Below are positions 6,230 through 50,498 of a stretch of DNA of 64,000 nt, piece after piece. The stretch is from a virus: positions 182,150 through 246,149 of IMG/VR virus record IMGVR_UViG_3300042261_002390. One strand, written 5' to 3'. The position numbers and the translations under genes were made by a program. The stretch's first letter is position 1; each line of letters begins with the position of its first letter. Below the pieces are notes generated by a model, which was given only the letters and a program-made list of their open reading frames with translations, had not been told where the DNA came from and did not search any database.

Positions 6230-6265
6230 CTTATTGTACGTTAAGCCTGAAGAAAATGTTACAAA
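6230..6265 (-). promoter_or_regulatory. Phage promoter motif (minus strand copy)
   Basis: Read on the minus strand this is TTTGTAACA, then ATTTTCTTCAGGCTTAA, then CGTACAATAAG, the same layout as the rightward copies. It lies in the short gap downstream of the thioredoxin start and could serve the DUF262 gene and the genes beyond it. Confidence 0.6.
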
Positions 6266-16414: not shown

Positions 16415-17566
16415 ATGAAGATAAGTATAATTCTTGGCGCATGTTTCGGAGACGAGGGTAAAGGTGCTTTCGTCAATTATCTGTGTAATAAAACAGACAA
16501 ACCATTGGTTGTTAGGTTTAACGGTGGTCAGCAATGTGGACATACTGTAGTATATAATGGAAACAGACACGTATTTTCAAATTTCGGTTCTGGAAGCCTT
16601 CGAGGTGTTCCGACATATTGGTCAGAGTATTGTACCTTAGACCCGATTGGTTTTAAAAATGAATTAGCATCGTTGAACCAAATTGGTATTATGCCAAAAA
16701 TAGTTTATAATGCTAATGCAATGGTGACTACACCTTTTGATAAATATCAGAACCATAAGCTCAATGCAATAAACAAACACGGTAGTGTTGGAGTTGGTTT
16801 TGGAACAACTATTCAACGAAACGAAGACCATTATCACTTATATGTGAGGGACTTACTGTATCCTAAAATCAGGGATGCTAAACTCGAAAATATTTGGAAG
16901 CAGTATTATAAGATATCTGAAATGTCAGGGGATTGGGAAGTTATAATGAATAAGTTTATCGAAGCATGTGATGTTTTTATTAACTATGCGCATTGCGGTA
17001 TAGTAAATTCAATTGATGAGATTTTATACTACGACCATTTAATTTTCGAAGGTGGTCAGGGCATATTACTTGACCAAAATTATGGATTCTTCCCAAATGT
17101 CACACGTAGCAATACAACATCAAAAAATGCAATTGAAATCATCAATAAATTGCCATTGTTTGAAGGCGATAAAGTAATTGATACATATTATATCACCAGA
17201 GCATATCAAACAAGGCATGGCAATGGTTATATGACGAATCAAGATTTAGATATCTCATATATTAAAGAAAATCCTAATGAAACCAATGTGATGGGTTTTC
17301 AGGGTGAATTCAGGAAATCTGTTCTTGATTTAGATTTGTTGAAATATGCTGTTCAATGTGACAAATATCACAATCCTAAGTCAAGGAAGAATCTCGTAAT
17401 TACGTGCCTAGACCAAATTCCAAGTAAGAATGCCGTACCACTTACTTTTGAAGGTAAATTAACACACATGAAACCTAAACAAATAAGTGAATTCTTGCTT
17501 GGAAACAGTATGGAAAGATGTTATCCAACATATTCAGATACCGGATATTCGGATGTACTTCCATAA
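16415..17566 (+). CDS. purA: Adenylosuccinate synthetase (PurA family)
   Basis: 383 residues, shorter than the usual ~430. The GTP-binding and catalytic start is IILGACFGDEGKGAF, with catalytic Asp13 kept. NGGQQCGHT supplies the catalytic His. VGVGFGTTIQRNEDH matches the IMP region, and LIFEGGQGILLD plus FFPNVTRSNTT are family signatures. It converts IMP, aspartate and GTP to adenylosuccinate, the step before AMP. Phage PurA relatives called PurZ make 2-aminoadenine nucleotides and replace Asp13, so the retained Asp argues for classical or PurZ0-like chemistry. A longer start at 16376 exists but lacks homologous character. Confidence 0.85.
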   Translation: MKISIILGACFGDEGKGAFVNYLCNKTDKPLVVRFNGGQQCGHTVVYNGNRHVFSNFGSGSLRGVPTYWSEYCTLDPIGFKNELASLNQIGIMPKIVYNANAMVTTPFDKYQNHKLNAINKHGSVGVGFGTTIQRNEDHYHLYVRDLLYPKIRDAKLENIWKQYYKISEMSGDWEVIMNKFIEACDVFINYAHCGIVNSIDEILYYDHLIFEGGQGILLDQNYGFFPNVTRSNTTSKNAIEIINKLPLFEGDKVIDTYYITRAYQTRHGNGYMTNQDLDISYIKENPNETNVMGFQGEFRKSVLDLDLLKYAVQCDKYHNPKSRKNLVITCLDQIPSKNAVPLTFEGKLTHMKPKQISEFLLGNSMERCYPTYSDTGYSDVLP

Positions 17567-43230: not shown

Positions 43231-44253
43231 ATGCAGCCGATATTATTAACACGTGATGATTTCCGGAATGGCGTTTTTGAGCGTGATTCTCATAAATGCG
43301 TTATCTGCAAGAAACCTGCAGTTGACGCACATCACATTATTGAGCGCAGACTATTTTCAAATGGTGGATACTACATCGAGAATGGCGCATCGCTTTGCGC
43401 TGAACACCATGTTGAAGCAGAGCAAACCACATTATCTTGTGATGTGATTCGTGAAAAATGTGGCATTGAAACTATCGTATTGCCTGACCATTTTTATGAT
43501 GATAATGAATACGATAAGTGGGGAAATATCATATTGCCGAATGGTAACAGGGTTAAAGGCGAATTATTCTATGATGAAAGCGTTCAGAAGATACTGAAAC
43601 AAGGTGGCGTGTTGGATTTATTTGTTAAGTATGTAAAGTACCAAAGAACTTTCCATTTACCGTGGAGTAATCTGTTGAAAGACGATAGAATTCTTGAAAA
43701 CGATAATCATTTTCACGGTAAACGTGTCGTCGTGACACTTAAAATGGATGGTGAAAATACTACTATGTATAACGACCATATTCATGCACGTTCATTAGAA
43801 TCAGCTAGTCATGAAACACGTAATTGGGCTAAGGGTTTATGGTCTAGGATTTCATATTTACTTGATGATAACATGCGCATTTGTGGTGAAAACCTATATG
43901 CAGTTCATTCTGTTAAGTATGAGGAATTACCAACGTATTTTATGATGTTTTCAATCTGGATTGATAACAAATGCTTGTCTTGGGATGAAACCCAAGAATA
44001 TGCCAAAATTCTTGGATTAGAGACAGTCCCGGTCTTCTATGATGGAATTTACGATAAAGACAAAATAATCGCCGAATTCGAGAAATACAGGCTTAAAAAC
44101 GAAGGATATGTTATTCGTTTAGCTGATGAATTTTATTATCAGGATTTCCGCAAATCTATTGCAAAATACGTGCGTCCAGAGTTTAGACAAATCGTCAATA
44201 ACTCACATGGACACTGGATTTCGAAAAAAGTTGAACCAAATAAATTAAAATAA
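43231..44253 (+). CDS. HNH endonuclease fused to RNA ligase
   Basis: 340 residues, two enzymes in one chain. Residues about 1-75 form an HNH/zinc finger: FERDSHKCVICKKPAVDAHH (Cys23, Cys26, His34-35), then ENGASLCAEHHVEAEQ (Cys56, His59-60). Residues about 140-340 form a nucleotidyltransferase: motif I VTLKMDGENTTMY (Lys171), motif III CGENLYAVHSVKY, motif IV NEGYVIRLADEF, motif V SIAKYVRPEF. A cutting and joining pair suggests RNA repair or programmed RNA processing. There is one base of overlap with the next gene. Which end chemistry it uses is unknown. Confidence 0.85.
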   Translation: MQPILLTRDDFRNGVFERDSHKCVICKKPAVDAHHIIERRLFSNGGYYIENGASLCAEHHVEAEQTTLSCDVIREKCGIETIVLPDHFYDDNEYDKWGNIILPNGNRVKGELFYDESVQKILKQGGVLDLFVKYVKYQRTFHLPWSNLLKDDRILENDNHFHGKRVVVTLKMDGENTTMYNDHIHARSLESASHETRNWAKGLWSRISYLLDDNMRICGENLYAVHSVKYEELPTYFMMFSIWIDNKCLSWDETQEYAKILGLETVPVFYDGIYDKDKIIAEFEKYRLKNEGYVIRLADEFYYQDFRKSIAKYVRPEFRQIVNNSHGHWISKKVEPNKLK

Positions 44254-47773: not shown

Positions 47774-47808
47774 ATTGTAACCTTTTCATTAATACAAACG
47801 TATAAGAA
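47774..47808 (+). promoter_or_regulatory. Phage promoter motif driving the CRISPR locus
   Basis: ATTGTAACC, 16-17 bases, AACGTATAAGAAA, ending 5 bases before the first CRISPR leader RNA. The CRISPR system thus sits under the same promoter type as the phage's own operons. Confidence 0.7.
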
Positions 47809-47812
47809 AAAA

Positions 47813-47982
47813 GTTCATTGAAAATATTAAGTATTTGCATATTTTATTATGCAAAGTGCGTGTTGTGACGCACATAGTGATTCTCGAAGAGACGAGAATG
47901 AGTTTAAACTCAGGGAAATTTCCACTCACTAACAACCAACAAATTTGTATGTTGTTATTTGTCAACACGTTATAGATAATAT
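47813..47982 (+). ncRNA. Structured CRISPR leader RNA, copy 1 (tracrRNA candidate)
   Basis: A ~170-base element nearly repeated at 49604-49776. Conserved parts: hairpin TTTGCAT (47834) with ATGCAAA (47849); hairpin GTGCGT (47856) - GTTGTG - ACGCAC (47868); AACAAC (47931) with GTTGTT (47951); then TGTCAAC (47960-47966). Between are three variable hairpins (e.g. TTCTCG/CGAGAA at 47881/47893). The GTTGTG loop and TGTCAAC are complementary to the CACAAC and GTTGACA parts of the CRISPR repeat 3' end. Confidence 0.7.
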
Positions 47983-48243
47983 GGTGTAACTAATCACAAT
48001 TTGAGAGGTTGACACAACGCTAGTCCGTAAACCCACCCCCCCAAAGGCGGTGTAACTAATCACAATTTGAGAGGTTGACACAACGCAAGCTATCAACACT
48101 AAAAAAATAATATGGTGTAACTAATCACAATTTGAGAGGTTGACACAACCAGACAGAATTACTTAAAGGTGTAACTAATCACAATTTGAGAGGTTGACAC
48201 AACTTCGGATGACCTTTAGGTGGTGTAACTAATCACAATTTGA
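47983..48243 (+). CRISPR. CRISPR array 1 (four 36-base repeats plus a partial fifth)
   Basis: Repeats at 47983-48018, 48049-48084, 48114-48149 and 48168-48203 are identical, each beginning GGTGTAACTAATCACAATTT and ending GAGGTTGACACAAC. A partial copy at 48222-48243 keeps only the first 22 bases. Spacers are 30, 29, 18 and 18 bases. The array lies between the leader and the nuclease gene, on the same strand; it ends 18 bases before the ATG. Confidence 0.92.
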
Positions 48244-48261
48244 TTAAAAACAAAAAAAAAA

Positions 48262-49602
48262 ATGGAAAATTATTGTATTAAAACAAGAAAGATTACGATA
48301 ATTCCTTCAGGGGATAATCGGAATGATGTTTATTCGTATATTCGAAAAATGGCATCAGATTTAGCAAGAATTGGTAATGGCGTGATTAGGCTTCACTTTA
48401 ACAATCAATACGATATTGATGAAATATCGAAGTCACGTAATATTACTAAGTCGGATGCAAAGAAATTTGTTGAAGAAAAGCTTGGTACGTCAATTCGTAA
48501 TTCTGGTTATCAATCATTGACTGAGTTGATTGACATATCTTCAAATATTCGCACATCGTTTAATTCATTGATTTTTAAAACAACACAAAATAATTTCTTT
48601 GATGTTTTAACGGGGAAAATGAGTATTCCTTCATTCAGGAAGACCAACATCAATATTCCGTTTCAATTTAAGGGAGATGCTCCGTTTAGTCTGGATGAAA
48701 AAGAATACTATTATTTCAATTTACCCTCAACCAAACACACTAAAGAAACAATCGGTGAACTGAAATTATCGTTGTTCTTTGGAAAAGATAGAAGCAATAA
48801 TCGTATTATTGTCGAACGCATTCTTAGTGGCGAATATGAAATATGCGATAGCTCAATTCAAGTAAAGGATAAAGATTTGTTTTTGTTGCTAACATATAAA
48901 CAGCCAATAAGCGAAAAGCTATTAAAACCTGAAAAAGTAATGGGTATTGATATCGGCATTAATCGTCCGGTAAGTTTTTACATCAGTGATGAAAAACATC
49001 AGCCAAGACAGTTTAATCTTAACGAGCATATACAGCATGAGAGGCTTAAATTGTTGAAACAAAGAAAATCGCTTCAACAATCATTAAAATTTTCTGTTGG
49101 TGGTCATGGTAGAAATCGAAAATTAGTGGCACTGAATGTATTAAAAGAAAAAGAATTACGTTGGGCAAAAAATAAGAATCATCAAATCACTAAAGCAATT
49201 ATTGATATTGCGCTACAGTATGGTGTTGGGGTGATTAAAATGGAAGATTTGACTGGTATTACTCAAGATACTAAAAATTATTTCTTGAAGTCTTGGGCAT
49301 ATTATCAACTGCAAAGCTTCTTGGAATATAAAGCCAAATCCTATGGTATTAAAATCTTATGGGTTGACCCAAAAAATACGTCTAGAACATGTCCTGTTTG
49401 TGGTAATGTCGATAAAGAAAACAGACATAGCACAGTCTTTAAATGTGTAAATGAATCATGTCCAGACCACGATGTTGAAAAAGATGCCGATATTGTCGCA
49501 GCTTTGAATATATCAAAATCAATTGGTTCTGATGTGAAACCTAAATCGAAAAAGGGAATTATCAGTGCTAAGACAAAACAAAAAGATATTGTTGAAGCAT
49601 AA
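48262..49602 (+). CDS. Miniature Cas12/TnpB-like RuvC nuclease (type V CRISPR effector)
   Basis: 446 residues. RuvC-I is VMGIDIGINRPVSFYI (Asp230), RuvC-II is GVGVIKMEDLTGI (Glu328), and RuvC-III is EKDADIVAALNIS (Asp410). A zinc finger lies between II and III: SRTCPVCGNVD and KCVNESC (Cys377, 380, 395, 400). Residues ~1-220 form the recognition part, with GKMSIPSFRKTNINIPF as in TnpB-like proteins. The usual DxNAA is DIVAA here. It should cut DNA (or RNA) guided by crRNAs from the two arrays. It is smaller than CasPhi or CasLambda (about 700-800) and no Cas1/2 or TnpA is nearby. No IS ends are visible. Confidence 0.88.
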   Translation: MENYCIKTRKITIIPSGDNRNDVYSYIRKMASDLARIGNGVIRLHFNNQYDIDEISKSRNITKSDAKKFVEEKLGTSIRNSGYQSLTELIDISSNIRTSFNSLIFKTTQNNFFDVLTGKMSIPSFRKTNINIPFQFKGDAPFSLDEKEYYYFNLPSTKHTKETIGELKLSLFFGKDRSNNRIIVERILSGEYEICDSSIQVKDKDLFLLLTYKQPISEKLLKPEKVMGIDIGINRPVSFYISDEKHQPRQFNLNEHIQHERLKLLKQRKSLQQSLKFSVGGHGRNRKLVALNVLKEKELRWAKNKNHQITKAIIDIALQYGVGVIKMEDLTGITQDTKNYFLKSWAYYQLQSFLEYKAKSYGIKILWVDPKNTSRTCPVCGNVDKENRHSTVFKCVNESCPDHDVEKDADIVAALNISKSIGSDVKPKSKKGIISAKTKQKDIVEA

Positions 49603-49603
49603 C

Positions 49604-49776
49604 GTTCATTGAAAATATTAAGTATTTGCATATTAATTATGCAAAGTGCGTGTTGTGACGCACATAGTGACTTGTGAATAAACACAAGGGTTAATAAATA
49701 ACCGGAAGCTATGCTTCACTCACTAACAACCAACAAAATTGTATGTTGTTTTATGTCAACACGTTATTGGTAATAG
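49604..49776 (+). ncRNA. Structured CRISPR leader RNA, copy 2 (tracrRNA candidate)
   Basis: It starts two bases after the nuclease stop. It has the same conserved ends as copy 1 (GTTCATTGAAAATATTAAG start; GTGCGT-GTTGTG-ACGCAC; AACAAC/GTTGTT; TGTCAAC). The three middle hairpins have different sequences but the same pairing: CTTGTG/CACAAG (49671/49683), GGTTA/TAACC (49689/49699), GAAGC/GCTTC (49705/49713). Such covariation between two copies is good evidence for a selected RNA structure. Confidence 0.7.
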
Positions 49777-50242
49777 GTTGTGACAAGACACAATTTTTGG
49801 GGTTGACACAACACTACCGAGTTTGAGCAACGATGTGAAGAAGTTGTGACAAGACACAATTTTTGGGGTTGACACAACAACTGTTCAGTAGCTATTGTAG
49901 ATGAACTAGTTGTGACAAGACACAATTTTTGGGGTTGACACAACTAGTGCTTTATAGCTGCCGAAGTGATTTCAGTTGTGACAAGACACAATTTTTGGGG
50001 TTGACACAACACAAGGATGACTGGTTTTTTCTTTGCTGGTTGTGACAAGACACAATTTTTGGGGTTGACACAACAGCATGATGACAGGCAAAACAGTCGA
50101 TTTTGTTGTGACAAGACACAATTTTTGGGGTTGACACAACAGATTAACAACGAAGAATGGATTACGAGCAGTTGTGACAAGACACAATTTTTGGGGTTGA
50201 CACAACTATAAGGGCAATATCGTTCTGATAAGACACAATTTC
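49777..50242 (+). CRISPR. CRISPR array 2 (seven 36-base repeats plus a degenerate end)
   Basis: Identical repeats start at 49777, 49843, 49909, 49975, 50039, 50105 and 50171. Each begins GTTGTGACAAGACACAATTT and ends GGGGTTGACACAAC. Six spacers are 28-30 bases. After the last repeat a degenerate copy (GTTCTGATAAGACACAATTT, two mismatches in 20) begins at 50222. Compared with array 1 the repeat is identical at 28 of 36 positions, including the last 12 bases. Confidence 0.95.
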
Positions 50243-50299
50243 GAATATGTTTTGTATTTATAAACAACACAGTTTGAATAGTTGATACAACATACAATC

Positions 50300-50462: not shown

Positions 50463-50498
50463 TTTGTAACCTTTCTTTATTGTCTAACGTATAATTTA
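50463..50498 (+). promoter_or_regulatory. Phage promoter motif
   Basis: TTTGTAACC, 17 bases, AACGTATAATTT, 15 bases before ATG 50511. Confidence 0.7.

Follow-up and report, generated by a model that had tools for sequence, protein, structure and literature searches.

What kind of system is formed by one small nuclease gene placed between two CRISPR arrays on a phage genome, and to which family does its nuclease belong? The locus lies in a stretch of DNA of 64 kb (the window), which is the last part of a linear IMG/VR virus record of 246,149 bp that may be incomplete. An earlier note on the window had described a phage-borne miniature type V system with two arrays and no adaptation genes, and had seen in it a possible new subtype or a link between TnpB and Cas12. 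The description is confirmed and the system falls in type V-F1: the locus consists of two tracrRNA-array cassettes around a single effector gene, cas12f. The tracrRNA gene belonging to each array was absent from the earlier note. PHROGs matches for the large terminase, portal, major head protein, tail sheath and a UvsX-like protein identify a T4-like contractile-tailed phage. The best INPHARED match of the terminase is a Flavobacterium phage at only 27% identity, so that a Bacteroidota host is a guess. Three other genes of the same phage were also observed: a clear IS200-type TnpB at positions 129283-130542 of the record (L010:9283-10542; NCBIfam 5.9e-109), which lies 100 kb away from the Cas12f locus; an adenylosuccinate synthetase at 16415-17566 of the window (PurA-like, Pfam 1.8e-43), which matches the PurZ model of 2-aminoadenine phages only weakly; and an RNA ligase at 43231-44253 (Pfam 1.4e-31, PHROG 3e-122) whose N-terminal part is HNH-endonuclease-like.

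The gene cas12f occupies positions 48262..49602 of the + strand and encodes 446 residues, and both arrays are present on its two sides, on the same strand, as had been described. Array 1 (47983..48243) contains four exact copies of the 36-nt repeat GGTGTAACTAATCACAATTTGAGAGGTTGACACAAC, starting at 47983, 48049, 48114 and 48168, and ends in a truncated fifth repeat (48222-48243); its spacers measure 30, 29, 18 and 18 nt. Array 2 (49777..50206) contains seven exact copies of the 36-nt repeat GTTGTGACAAGACACAATTTTTGGGGTTGACACAAC, with starts from 49777 to 50171, separated by spacers of 30, 30, 30, 28, 30 and 30 nt. It is prolonged on the + strand (50207..50291) by a spacer of ~15 nt, a degenerate eighth repeat (50222-50241) and a possible ninth, a weak match ending at 50291. 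The counts of four and seven full repeats thus stand, with truncated or degenerate ends to be added, and the statement that spacers are mostly 28-30 bases holds for 8 of the 11, the remaining three being far shorter. The last 12 nt (GGTTGACACAAC), hereafter the handle, are common to both repeats, which differ upstream. A scan of IMG/VR with the repeat pattern gave a single match, which we attribute to chance.

The whole unit is preceded by a promoter-like motif of the phage, TTGTAACCTTT..AACGTATAA, at 47775..47805 on the + strand. The motif, written TTGTAACCTTT-N10-20-AACGTATAA, occurs 21 times in the record; the window contains 20 of these copies, between 8988 and 62745 on the + strand and at 6234 on the - strand. 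The next copy after 47775 is at 50464, beyond array 2, so it seems that a single promoter precedes the whole unit, in agreement with the earlier reading. No Cas1 was detected with PF01867 in the 246-kb record or in the records of six relatives described below, while control genomes gave a positive signal in the same search; no Cas2 was detected in these same records with the one model tried. The claim that both genes are missing therefore holds for Cas1 and, within the reach of that single model, for Cas2. No transposase gene was present among the flanking ORFs checked beside cas12f.

Profiles, phylogeny and predicted fold clearly place the window protein in Cas12f, type V-F1 (formerly V-U3). 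The PADLOC profiles Cas12u3 (3.4e-91, residues 6-424) and Cas12f (8.5e-87) both match over nearly the full length, a Cas12f/V-U3 profile match is seen in all six family members, and the Pfam model Cas12f1-like_TNB matches at 1e-18. Of the NCBIfam models, only that of guided TnpB in general exceeds its curated cut-off (182 bits vs 100); the Cas12f2 model stays below its own. PHROGs names the family transposase. The predicted catalytic residues of RuvC (D230, E328, D410) and the zinc ribbon (C377, C380, C395, C400), already pointed out in the earlier note, are invariant in the six closest proteins; across 24 homologues D230, E328 and the four cysteines are invariant and D410 is at least 90% conserved. 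The best solved structures are all Cas12f, whether ranked by sequence or by fold: with an AF2 model of mean pLDDT 84.9, Foldseek gives AsCas12f and Al3Cas12f first (E ~6e-27, TM 0.71-0.77), and TnpB folds come well below. In a tree of 47 sequences, whose only reference rows are two PDB fragments and which barely samples cellular Cas12f, the window protein groups with four phage proteins (100/99), then with those of loci L021 and L065 (99/97), then with Al3Cas12f (96/91). We also considered CasPhi (Cas12j) and CasLambda (Cas12l) and rejected them: the Cas12j profile gives an E-value of 0.007, CasLambda structures rank low in the fold search with a TM of ~0.36-0.49, and these proteins have 700-800 residues vs 446.

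The size argument of the earlier note, which set the protein nearer to TnpB, had overlooked Cas12f, whose members measure 422-603 aa (PMC7229846). Since Cas12f proteins are normally of 400-600 aa and V-F systems of huge phages have been published, the locus is neither a new subtype nor, by itself, a link between TnpB and Cas12, although the fused guides of its relatives touch that question.

A nearly duplicated block of ~165 nt precedes each array and corresponds to a tracrRNA gene: T1 at 47816..47981 (core 47853-47937) and T2 at 49606..49774 (core 49643-49731), both on the + strand. Each contains, in the same order, a hairpin with the loop GUUGUG, a three-hairpin junction closed by AGUGA:UCACU, and the antirepeat CAACC (47933-47937 in T1, 49727-49731 in T2). 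The ends of T1 and T2 are nearly identical, whereas the middle hairpins diverge in sequence and keep their fold; the cores fold better than shuffled sequences (z of -4.0 for T1 and -5.5 for T2). The antirepeat CAACC pairs with GGUUG of the crRNA, and the loop GUUGUG with its 3' end CACAAC, forming a pseudoknot. This is the layout to be expected of a Cas12f tracrRNA, a comparison made with published descriptions, that of PMC13186708 among them, rather than through an alignment.

These structures are supported by covariation over related phage loci. In ten cassettes from seven loci, window included, and with antirepeat and pseudoknot counted in the structure, 91.2% of the cells are paired, compared with 36-50% when the structure is slid, a contrast that is partly built in because the structure was drawn from the same sequences. 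Stronger evidence is given by the double-sided changes: 22 pairs are changed on both sides. None of 500 shuffles attains these values. The antirepeat covaries with the handle, CAACC:GGUUG in the window vs AUACC:GGUAU/GGUGU in relatives, and the pseudoknot loop varies between G:C and A:U across loci. The pairing of each handle with its tracrRNA is an assumption of the alignment, because the split forms were joined by hand (antirepeat, GAAA linker, handle) and one handle was chosen from the eroded array of locus L019. A covariance model built from the cassettes finds eleven places with E below 1e-12, the ten cassettes and a duplicate in locus L020. As these are mostly its training set, what is informative is that no further places appear: nothing else falls below an E of 0.4 in 0.7 Mb, the rest of the phage included. 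Rfam gave no match. Duplex energies do not separate the pairings of T1 with array 1 from those of T2 with array 2, and we therefore claim no specificity of each tracrRNA for its array.

Is this organization peculiar to the window? A contig scan with the window protein alone matched only a cyanobacterial TnpB. Family alignments run against IMG/VR brought up L017 and its near duplicate L020, together with L018, L019 and L022, at 53-57% identity, and L065 and L021 at about 40-44%. All share with the window the make-up of gene, tracrRNA and array and the fold of the tracrRNA. L018 and L022 also have, like the window, a second tracrRNA downstream of cas12f. In the tracrRNA tree T1 pairs with T2 of the window (98/98) and L018d pairs, weakly, with L022d (83/65), so that cassettes were duplicated, or later homogenised, on more than one occasion. 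Outside the window clade, a phage locus of the AsCas12f branch (L028:4150-6320) has two tracrRNA-array cassettes with different repeats around its gene, and its sisters L027 and L067 have one tracrRNA motif near the gene; the dual layout is thus recurrent in phage Cas12f loci. About 19 other distinct IMG/VR loci combine a Cas12f-like gene with a nearby array.

In four relatives the tracrRNA appears to be fused to a guide. At L018:6362-6465 (L018d), L022:6359-6461 (L022d), L021:6374-6493 and L065:6352-6478, the antirepeat leads into the 3' handle and a guide, either directly or through a linker shorter than a whole repeat; the linker is longest in L065, whose handle is also the least certain. 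Judged by their sequences, these are apparent natural single-guide RNAs. Over the 100 nt that end with the handle, L018d and L022d have 88% identity; in the next 20 positions they coincide at 3, which is what a guide should show. Their predicted fused RNAs overlap the 3' end of cas12f (ORF ends at 6425 in L018 and 6422 in L022), in the manner of an omegaRNA and tnpB. When IMG/VR was scanned for the pattern of the fused form, it came up in L018, L021 and L022 only; L065 has another handle and lies outside the pattern. At L017:4823-4960 and L019:4500-4990, arrays are worn to the 3' 12-nt handle with short irregular spacers. The handle retains 0.90-0.92 identity vs 0.31-0.49 for the 5' 21 nt, a contrast biased by the picking of sites by their handle. 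This bias does not affect the excess of handles in L019, where nine are found in 491 nt vs 0.7 in shuffles (maximum 3).

The window lineage branches early in its clade and is split, and the outgroups L021 and L065 are fused. The lineage might conceivably preserve steps from an omegaRNA-like to a split guide, the fused form being ancestral here and still active, an idea that we put forward with considerable reserve. The steps would be a fused guide followed by an array (L021, L065), a fused RNA that overlaps the gene, with a split cassette upstream (L018, L022), then the two cassettes of the window, both of them fully split, and worn arrays of handle plus guide (L017, L019).

How would the window locus work? 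We consider it probable that it is a phage type V-F1 system without adaptation genes, in which two cassettes serve one Cas12f for guided DNA cutting of competitors. The single phage promoter would yield one transcript containing the tracrRNAs and pre-crRNAs of the two cassettes as well as the cas12f message. Each pre-crRNA would pair with a tracrRNA through the antirepeat and the pseudoknot and be processed. Because the 12-nt handle, the antirepeat and the loop are common to both cassettes, one Cas12f could use every guide. The complex, in Cas12f an asymmetric dimer of the protein on one guide RNA, would then cut double-stranded DNA matching the spacer beside a 5' PAM, the target most likely being competing phages or plasmids and less likely the host chromosome. 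Since Cas1 was not found, the guide set would be inherited and would change by mutation, recombination and cassette duplication.

Rival phages and host genes are precedents for targets of phage CRISPR systems (PMC7162821, PMC11656645). For the window, spacers had no target in their own genome or in the related loci when as many as 3 mismatches were allowed within their first 20 nt, and the comparison with phage and plasmid databases envisaged in the earlier note gave no convincing target in INPHARED phages, PLSDB plasmids and seven phage records, nor did exact seeds of three spacers in IMG/VR. Only an 18-nt spacer matched exactly, in two nearly identical cyanophage-like contigs and in the same gene of both; roughly this much is to be expected by chance in so large a collection.

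An alternative is that the system mainly binds and silences host or rival genes, through short guides or a weak nuclease. Three spacers of 15-18 nt, the existence of a nuclease-dead Cas12f among the structural relatives (9n9c), the silencing mode of Cas12m (PMC11013384) and the proposal that a phage Cas14 without a catalytic residue represses a host gene (PMC7162821) would all fit. Yet the RuvC triad is intact and, unlike in Cas12m, conserved in all close relatives, most spacers are of 28-30 nt, and 19-nt spacers are enough for good editing by Al3Cas12f (PMC13186708), so that 18 nt may suffice to cut; we hold a mainly silencing role to be improbable. That the locus is decaying and has lost its function, as the truncated distal repeats of both arrays, the heavily eroded arrays of L017 and L019 and the lack of spacer targets could suggest, is very unlikely: the ORF is intact, its catalytic residues are conserved in relatives of 53-57% identity, the diverged hairpins of T1 and T2 keep their fold, and the eroded arrays retain their handles, in L019 at a number not explained by picking bias. 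A TnpB-type transposon nuclease set by chance beside CRISPR-like repeats, to which the NCBIfam TnpB model and the PHROGs name might point, is hardly credible against the full-length Cas12u3/Cas12f match, Cas12f structures outranking every TnpB, the covariation of both cassettes' RNAs with the repeats, the absence of a transposase gene from the flanking ORFs checked, and the far higher score to IS200 TnpB of the real TnpB of this phage.

The closest solved relative of the window protein is Al3Cas12f of Alistipes sp. (PDB 9nzo/9nzr; PMC13186708), which has 37% identity over the compared fragment (phmmer 3.5e-55), the same fold and the same use of tracrRNA and crRNA; it differs in its origin, being mined from microbial metagenomes and named after a bacterium, and in its chain of 506 aa. 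AsCas12f1 and other V-U3 Cas12f1 (PMC7229846) resemble the window system in size, RuvC and zinc ribbon, tracrRNA with array and lack of adaptation genes, at about 25-28% identity in the aligned core, but their loci are bacterial and those tested had one tracrRNA region instead of two cassettes. TnpB belongs to the same superfamily, but its single guide-carrying omegaRNA (IS200/IS605) differs from the window, where tracrRNAs are separate from the crRNA handle; an omegaRNA-like fused form is found in the relatives only. In Cas9 systems, the tracrRNA called tracr-L is a natural single-guide RNA that carries a guide itself and regulates cas genes. The fused RNAs of the relatives likewise place a guide on the tracrRNA but, unlike tracr-L, show no sign of autoregulation, no seed match of at least 9 nt being present within 5 kb of their loci. 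The RNA tracr-L is treated in PMC11417352.

Miniature type V effectors with short arrays and no acquisition genes are already known from phages. Al-Shayeb et al. 2020 (PMC7162821) report type V-F systems in huge phages, with almost all of the phage CRISPR systems described there lacking acquisition genes, and a landfill study (PMC12607003) describes similar V-F/V-U systems and one jumbo phage with up to six arrays. In the sections consulted, these studies mention neither a tracrRNA-array cassette duplicated on either side of one effector nor fused guides, and we found no description of the duplicated layout in the few papers compared. What is new is this duplicated layout and the fused guides of the relatives. 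Duplicated cassettes around one effector, with tracrRNAs that have diverged and yet preserve their structure, offer guide scaffolds that co-evolve in nature with a compact nuclease akin to Al3Cas12f. The apparent single-guide RNAs of the relatives make the passage from omegaRNA to tracrRNA and crRNA testable within one recent family. They suggest in addition that phages without Cas1 alter their guide sets by duplicating and trimming cassettes, and such ready-fused guides may help to show how CRISPR guides arose from the guides of transposon nucleases.
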